NCBI GenBank assembly: GCA_013297725.1
Contig: JAAFIB010000006.1
Coordinates: forward strand, 1 to 64,000
Direction: 5' to 3'
Source of the DNA: Sphingomonadales bacterium
Lineage (GTDB): Bacteria; Pseudomonadota; Alphaproteobacteria; Sphingomonadales; Sphingomonadaceae
DNA: 64,000 nucleotides
Positions within the stretch are counted from its first letter, which is position 1. Every line of letters starts with the position of its first letter. Of the stretch, positions 47,683 through 49,226 are shown piece after piece. The position numbers and the translations under genes are program-made. The notes beneath the pieces are model-generated. The model saw only the letters and a list, made by a program, of their open reading frames with translations. It did not search any database and was not told the DNA's origin.

Positions 47683-48972
47683 CTAGTCTTGTCGCGCAAA
47701 ATCCGCGCGTTTCATCGCATTGCCGTAGAGTTTACGATAACGCGCGAACATTTCGGCCTCTCCATATTCGGCAATGGCCAGTGCCTGATTGTCAGCGCCT
47801 ATTCTTTGCCGCAGTGCAGCATCACCTGCCAATGCCGAAAGCGCCACAGCAAAGCCCGCCTCATCCTCTTTGGCAATGATAAAGGGCCGGTTGGCCTCTG
47901 TCACAATATTGCGGACATCGCCGACATCGGTGCAGACCGCAGGCAGCCCCGCCGTCATCGCCTCAACCAGCGAGATTGGATATTGCTCGCTATCCGACGA
48001 CAAAGCGAAAATATCAAACAAGCCGACATAGCGCGCAGGGTCGCGCATAAATCCCGGCATGATCAGGCGATCCGCAATCCCCAACCGTGCAGCCTCCGCC
48101 TTAATCGCCGCCAGCTCTGGCCCCTCACCCGCAATCGCCAATCGCACATTCGGCCCAGCCGCCGCAACCGCGCGAACAAGACGCGGCAGATTTTTAACTG
48201 CACGCAGGCCAGCGATCGTGCCGACCACAACTTCGCCTTCATTTTTGACAAGGCCTGGAAAAGCGTCAGCCTTTGGCGGCACCTGATATCGCGGGATGTT
48301 GATGCCATTGGCTATGCGTATTAAGCCCCTCCCCTTAAGGGGAGGGGTTGGGGTGGGGACTGTAAGCGAAGCGCCATCGCCGAGAGCCCCCACCCCACTG
48401 CGACTAGGCATCAAAGATGCCAAGTCTCGTTGCCCCTCCCCTGAGCCGAAGGCCACCGAAGGTGAACGGGAGGGGCTGAATCCCCAATGCCGCAACGCAA
48501 TCCTCTCAAGCGTCATAGACGGCACGACTAACGCATGCGCACCTTTCAACGCCAGCCGCCGGAACGCATTGCGCTTTCCGTTCAGCCGCACCGCCTCATC
48601 CTGATTATAGCCATCCTCATGATGGATCAGCGGGGGCAATTTCATAAACGGGCCAAGCAAACAATGCGCCATCACCCCATCCATCGAACCCCAATTATAC
48701 GACAGCACAAGGTCAAAACCCTGCATATAGCGCGCAAGCCGCAGATAGCGCGCGGGCGCGGGCTTGCCATAAAGCGGCGGCGCGGCATCACCGGGAAAGT
48801 CCACAGCGATGGCAGGATCAATCTCGCTACGCGCGCCCATGGCATTCGGCATAGCGGACAAGATCGCGTGGCACGCCTCATCCCCAAAATGGTTCATCAA
48901 CTGCACCGCCCGCGCCTCTTTACCGCCAAGGTCAAACGCGCTGTGCAAATGGAGGATGCGGATAGGCTTCAT
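47683..48972 (-). CDS. Glycosyltransferase family 1 (GT4-like) with internal repeat-derived segment
   Basis: Start MKPIRILHLHSAFDLGGKEARAVQLMNHF; VGTIAGLRAVKNLPRLVRAVA, FALSSDSEQYPISLVEAMTAGLPAV. Confidence 0.9.
   Translation of the reverse strand: MKPIRILHLHSAFDLGGKEARAVQLMNHFGDEACHAILSAMPNAMGARSEIDPAIAVDFPGDAAPPLYGKPAPARYLRLARYMQGFDLVLSYNWGSMDGVMAHCLLGPFMKLPPLIHHEDGYNQDEAVRLNGKRNAFRRLALKGAHALVVPSMTLERIALRHWGFSPSRSPSVAFGSGEGQRDLASLMPSRSGVGALGDGASLTVPTPTPPLKGRGLIRIANGINIPRYQVPPKADAFPGLVKNEGEVVVGTIAGLRAVKNLPRLVRAVAAAGPNVRLAIAGEGPELAAIKAEAARLGIADRLIMPGFMRDPARYVGLFDIFALSSDSEQYPISLVEAMTAGLPAVCTDVGDVRNIVTEANRPFIIAKEDEAGFAVALSALAGDAALRQRIGADNQALAIAEYGEAEMFARYRKLYGNAMKRADFARQD
48325..48477. repeat. 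GC-rich palindromic repeat inserted in the glycosyltransferase gene
   Basis: gcccctccccttaaggggaggggttggggtgggg...cccccaccccac...gcccctcccctgagccgaaggccaccgaaggtgaacgggaggggc; nested inverted repeats, boundaries approximate. Confidence 0.8.
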
Positions 48973-49226
48973 TACGAAGGGCGTATAACCAAACAGAATG
49001 AAAAAATCCCCAACATCGTGTTGTGGAGTTTTTGGTGTGGAAAATGGCTGGAGTAAGGGGGGAGCTGGCTGTCCGGTTTTATGTTGGAAATTTGGAAAAC
49101 TGTCACTCGCGTTTCTTTGAAGCCTTGATGTCCGCCTGGCCCCAAAGCGTTTGGGCAAAGATATGCTCTGCTTGGAAATCGGCAATTAAATCAACCATGA
49201 TGCAGCCCCCTGCCGCTTAAATTTGT

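Follow-up and report, generated by a model that had tools for sequence, protein, structure and literature searches.

A palindromic element read in frame in a sphingomonad glycosyltransferase gene and its probable kinship with DUF559 nuclease units

Results

The window analysed here, a stretch of 64,000 nucleotides, belongs to the draft genome of a Sphingomonadales bacterium (G000; 3.02 Mb in 148 contigs) placed in or near Sphingorhabdus by its named orthologue loci. It carries a glycosyltransferase (GT) gene whose coding frame includes a palindromic block (Table 1). The open reading frame (47683-49185, minus strand, 500 residues from a TTG) runs uninterrupted across this block, as the initial annotation had stated; the likely start is an ATG at 48972, which gives a reading of 430 residues. 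The protein matches the Pfam family Glycos_transf_1 (E = 1.6e-26), and its match to TIGR03088 scores under that family's cut-off. In 73 of 80 Sphingomonadaceae loci, the GT orthologue has a nitronate-monooxygenase gene as a neighbour.

Table 1. Features of the glycosyltransferase gene and its palindromic element (window coordinates)
Feature	Position	Strand	Basis
GT4 glycosyltransferase gene, Stp2-like, of the XrtA/PEP-CTERM type by distant match	47683-48972	-	Pfam, TIGR03088, synteny
Palindromic, MITE-like element of 158 bp, read in frame as GFSPSRSP...PPLKGRGL	48323-48480	-	Copies in G000, alignment, consensus fold, absence from orthologues
Left arm AAGCCCCTCCCCTTAAGGGGAGGGGTTGGGGTGGGGACTGT, of the type of the arms flanking DUF559 in G000:C138, G026, G027 and G029	48323-48363		Local alignment of 36 nt (score 33.5)
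Perfect 22-bp terminal palindrome (left hairpin)	48326-48347		Inverted-repeat search
Right arm with internal hairpin GACTAGGCATC-AAA-GATGCCAAGTC	48388-48444		Compensatory pairs; match to DUF559 arm
27-bp piece of a second, unrelated small repeat, GAGCCGAAGGCCACCGAAGGTGAACGG, nested in the right hairpin loop	48443-48469		Separate matches

The nested palindromes reported earlier are indeed there, and the bounds first given to the block (48325-48477) were roughly right, the best ones being slightly wider. The terminal palindrome, CCCCTCCCCTTAAGGGGAGGGG, is perfect, with 0 matches expected from 100 shuffles, and the inverted-repeat search found further nested repeats within the block. The terminal inverted repeats of the element (48310-48336 and 48465-48491) are 78% complementary. 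The block folds at -98.9 kcal/mol (z = -7.4), a stability reached by none of 200 shuffles. A group I or group II intron, or another known RNA family, was considered and rejected, since no Rfam model matched the block up to E = 1. Two reading frames are open in this copy, and most family copies have one to three. The nested 27-bp fragment has its own matches elsewhere in the genome, on contigs C62 (100%), C61, C138 and C63.

Alignment with the orthologues places the insertion precisely. They read W-HQPLEK-I where the window GT has the W, 53 residues and then LIR, so the 158-bp element takes the place of about 6 codons, with a net gain of 47 residues (141 bp). All 36 same-genus orthologues lack the insert and match only query residues 1-169 and ~216-430, and all 80 named Sphingomonadaceae matches have the insert-free length; in the 67 of these 80 loci where the loop is measurable it has 13-16 residues, nearly always 15-16. 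The claim that some 50 residues were added at a usually short linker holds. The AlphaFold2 model of the window GT (44 aligned sequences; pLDDT 84, pTM 0.82) resembles GT4 structures of the BshA, HepE and PimA type in a structure search. It is folded except for insert residues 169-214 (pLDDT ~26), which are predicted to be a disordered loop. The segment had been thought to lie between the two Rossmann lobes; in the model it belongs to the N-lobe, where it follows helix 153-162 and precedes strand 216-219, and the C-lobe starts near residue 248.

The gene itself is peculiar. In the window GT, 13% of otherwise invariant positions (19-20 residues) are altered, far above any orthologue, against 2-3% in further genes of this genome that carry inserts; the E-x7-E region is retained. 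The gene shows relaxed constraint, and its function is uncertain; being unusually divergent at conserved sites, it may be losing function.

A search of the same genome for other copies of the block recovered about 11 near-full-length ones, with 74-86% identity, plus fragments. A covariance model based on 16 copies, whose E-values are rough, recognised 28 distinct elements at E <= 1e-5; raw model counts run to about double the true number, because a palindromic model matches both strands. The family ends in TAAGCCCCTCC...GGGGCTTA, and its consensus comprises TAAGCCCCTCCCCTTCAGGGGAGGGGTTGGGGTGGGG, a variable stretch of ~30 nt and CCCCACCCCGCTGCGACTAGGCATCAAAGATGCCAAGTCTCGCTGCCCCTCCCCTGAAGAGGAGGGGCTTA. 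In the consensus fold both ends pair and enclose two arms with a linker, and compensatory changes among the copies support the internal hairpin. These copies, together with the orthologues without the insert, give good support to the reading of the block as a scattered palindromic repeat of intergenic type that has inserted in frame, for which Rickettsia had been cited as precedent. Neither of the findings named beforehand as refuting it was seen, be it distant orthologues with an unrelated sequence of equal length or a lack of further genomic copies. Searches of plasmids and of the literature with the insert peptides gave no match. The frame is uninterrupted in every intragenic copy examined, versus 23 of 102 frames open among copies not read within a gene, a weak contrast since genic copies were identified by being in frame; for the same reason, disruptive insertions are under-sampled.

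The window insertion is not an isolated event. Peptide searching combined with a survey of ORFs, with genes confirmed by Pfam or NCBIfam matches beyond the insert, yielded 11 in-frame copies across 9 genes of G000. Besides the window GT, these genes encode HrpB, MutL, CarA, GlyS (two copies), a ligase-associated DEXH helicase (two), FlgI (in the signal-peptide region), the exosortase XrtA (at the N-terminus) and an NTP_transf_5 protein. Relatives bear in-frame elements in SufC, Lnt, DnaE2 (two), MutL and a helicase; a dehydratase-like case in G026 was left out of the count for want of Pfam support at 1e-10. The MutL, CarA and GlyS genes of G000 show normal constraint despite their inserts (2-3% of otherwise invariant residues altered), and most relatives are insert-free at these sites. 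Two species, G000 and G026, have an element at the MutL site. The GlyS and CarA loops hold different sequences in other relatives, and several of these can be recognised as belonging to other repeat families. The two loops of GlyS (glycyl-tRNA synthetase beta; loci L206-L234) carry unrelated repeat families in different species, read as PAQAGAQ...LDPGLRRG, SPERGGG...PPPRAGE, RHPELVSGS...LKQVQHDG and TPAKAGGQ...DSRLRGND.

A closely matched pair is offered by DnaE2, where G033 has two in-frame inserts of +123 bp and G061 has none, the genes being 95-96% identical over most of their length. Here, as upstream of carA, the flanks are altered near the inserts and no clean target-site duplication was seen. 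Co-conversion of the DnaE2 flanks from the G001 lineage was considered but found no support, as the insert-adjacent flanks diverge from G061 and match G001 no better.

The arms of the element also occur around a nuclease gene. At G000:C138:7863-8298 (L200:2564-2999), a DUF559 gene is flanked by inverted arms of the window family, with the same ends as the window element, which makes this unit a candidate autonomous partner with a putative mobilising role. There and at G027:C88 the arms differ little, if at all, from the window family. In local alignment each half of the window element has a match among DUF559-flanking arms, and the element's right-arm type is found beside DUF559 in G027:C12, G062:C93 and G016:C2 as well. 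The C138 nuclease matches PF04480 at 2e-31, above the family cut-off, and DUF559 matches the structure 3hrl in the PDB (1.5e-15). Across 51 units, the nuclease residues E, D, E-x-D-G and H are conserved at 98-100% per column.

The association extends across the genus, where 29 of 45 genomes hold a total of 63 DUF559 matches; Caulobacter vibrioides is the sole positive of the 14 control genomes. Inverted palindromic arms within 350-bp flanks accompany 49 of the 55 testable DUF559 genes, versus 3 among 2,272 ORFs and 2 among 784 random intervals at control loci. Units are mostly 417-560 bp long, and in 29 of 48 neither arm interrupts the nuclease ORF. Arm similarity follows nuclease similarity (Mantel r 0.62; 0 of 2,000 permutations), also when only 36 representatives below 80% identity are kept (r 0.55; 0 of 2,000). 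The site upstream of carA holds a full unit in G014 and G063, a single hairpin in G028, G008, G025 and G064, and neither in G006 and G018. With kinship among genomes ignored, element and DUF559 counts correlate over the 45 genomes (Spearman 0.67), and the median element count is 12 in genomes with DUF559 and 0 in those without. In G032 there are 35 model matches (raw, both strands) and no DUF559 gene; either the nuclease has been lost there or another enzyme acts.

Beyond the genus, 11 of 16 plasmid DUF559 genes have arms, including two from Deinococcus and two from cyanobacteria, the weak arms of a Picosynechococcus plasmid being among the 11 counted. Clear arms are absent at some DUF559 loci, such as those of G013, G036 and G011, and in 5 of the 16 plasmid records. 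Several units lie in or next to conserved genes. Units lie inside operons in Sphingomonas parapaucimobilis, one separating sufB from sufC (L467, NZ_CP155753.1 111949-113606) and another between transhydrogenase subunits (L469). Units directly adjoin glyS in G063, G020 and G026 (L448, L423 and L425), and in the first two of these loci the nuclease frame opens in sequence resembling the beginning of glyS (MDGKER..GM). A partial DUF559 match within a 1,121-residue frame (L433, G004:C4:201018-201257) is possibly an in-frame remnant of the nuclease.

Discussion

The closest known parallel is provided by the Rickettsia palindromic elements (RPEs), which are palindromic, dispersed, about 100-150 bp long, divided into several families and found in frame in conserved genes (PMC2229807, PMC10969869). 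The window element, of 158 bp and with 28 distinct elements in its genome, likewise has in-frame copies in conserved genes, a likeness drawn from published descriptions. In-frame palindromic elements have been described as unusually frequent in Rickettsia. The present family differs in belonging to other bacteria, the free-living Sphingorhabdus, and in sharing its arms with DUF559 units, for which the literature that we searched gave no RPE counterpart. No paper naming an enzyme that moves in-frame palindromic elements was found either.

The CcrM-associated intergenic repeats (CIRs) of Caulobacter are also alphaproteobacterial, about 110 bp long and made of two long inverted-repeat arms with a linker. 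They have been described as confined to the space between genes, with each of the six frames closed by stops and with conserved GANTC sites (PMC2229807, PMC10969869). We reject identity with CIRs, as the family described here is often intragenic, has open frames and shows GANTC in only 7 of 28 copies, the other 21 being without it. Bacterial MITEs such as ERIC/RU-1, Correia and RUP are non-autonomous, have terminal inverted repeats, occur both between and within genes and can form in-frame fusions. Our family shares with them the terminal inverted repeats, the lack of an enzyme of its own and the existence of a larger unit, here that of DUF559, with the same ends. The known or suspected partners of MITEs are transposases; our family has a Vsr-like nuclease as its candidate. 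Homing endonuclease genes, including Vsr-like homing nucleases, are small nuclease genes that behave as selfish mobile units in permissive sites. The DUF559 unit differs from them by its hairpin arms and nuclease-less derivatives, and no intron or intein is involved.

Taken together, these data lead us to consider it probable that the window block is a nuclease-less, MITE-like derivative of a DUF559 element, fused in frame and most likely translated as a disordered loop. The full element would consist of two hairpin arms flanking a gene for a DUF559 nuclease (Vsr fold, PD-(D/E)XK type), and the window element of the same two arms joined without that gene. It seems to have entered the N-lobe at a surface turn that tolerates additions, exchanging about 6 codons for 53 with the frame kept, and both the GT transcript and its protein most likely include it as a disordered loop. 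DUF559 would be the mobilising enzyme, perhaps cutting at palindromes, with repair then copying the element. The arms are readily compatible with coding, probably because the nuclease frame often runs through them in full units, and surviving insertions would be in frame and in loops because selection purges those that break needed genes.

DUF559 could also be a passenger, lying in or beside the palindromes of a Rickettsia-type element moved by another enzyme such as an IS transposase or a REP-associated Y1 transposase. The TA-type ends and the MITE-like shape fit transposase-moved MITEs (PMC2229807, PMC10969869), and G032 has many elements and no DUF559. The tight flanking, the covariation of arms and nuclease and the conserved nuclease residues are nonetheless what a cognate enzyme would lead one to expect, not a random passenger, and the flanking recurs in plasmids of Deinococcus and cyanobacteria; we thus regard movement by another enzyme as unlikely, if worth keeping in mind. 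Slightly less doubtful is a decay of the GT in which the insert is a lesion tolerated because the gene no longer matters, an explanation compatible with a mobile-element origin. The many altered invariant residues speak for decay. Against it stand a frame intact over 430 residues, the retention of the E-x7-E region and of synteny, a confidently predicted GT fold outside the insert, and the essential genes of the same genome that bear such inserts at normal constraint.

The remaining explanations carry much less weight. The very stable fold of the block might suggest a segment removed from the RNA in the manner of an intron, or bypassed by the ribosome, and so absent from the protein. The Rfam result, the open frames of the intragenic copies compared with those elsewhere (with the bias already noted) and the coding of homologous arms within DUF559 ORFs all make this very improbable. 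Hardly more credible is a co-option of the insert, for example as a binding or regulatory loop: occupation of the MutL site in both G000 and G026 would agree with it, but the insert peptides are of low complexity and predicted to be disordered, and both frame and family vary at the same loop. An assembly artefact, conceivable in a draft of 148 contigs, or a set of chance palindromes can practically be dismissed, because the window copy is at most 86% identical to the others over its main length and holds a unique nested fragment, so that it is no mis-joined copy, and independent genomes show in-frame elements in other genes.

Conclusions

On a wider scale, we give about even odds to the proposal that DUF559 proteins are the enzymes of undescribed and widespread small mobile elements (~420-560 bp: arm, nuclease, arm). 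The nuclease-less derivatives of these elements would be the GC-rich palindromic repeats that abound in sphingomonads, and perhaps in other alphaproteobacteria, and would be able to lodge in frame in essential genes. A DUF559 protein of Caulobacter has been studied as a Vsr-like repair nuclease (PMC12907096). Our search of the openly accessible literature found nothing linking DUF559 to palindromic repeats, and novelty is therefore provisional.

A behaviour like that of the Rickettsia elements is now seen in essential genes of free-living bacteria, some of them cultured, and with a concrete candidate enzyme. The movement of such repeats, and their entry into proteins, thereby becomes directly testable, and a role is suggested for the DUF559 family. 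The findings also carry a warning, in that some odd protein loops in databases are repeat insertions.
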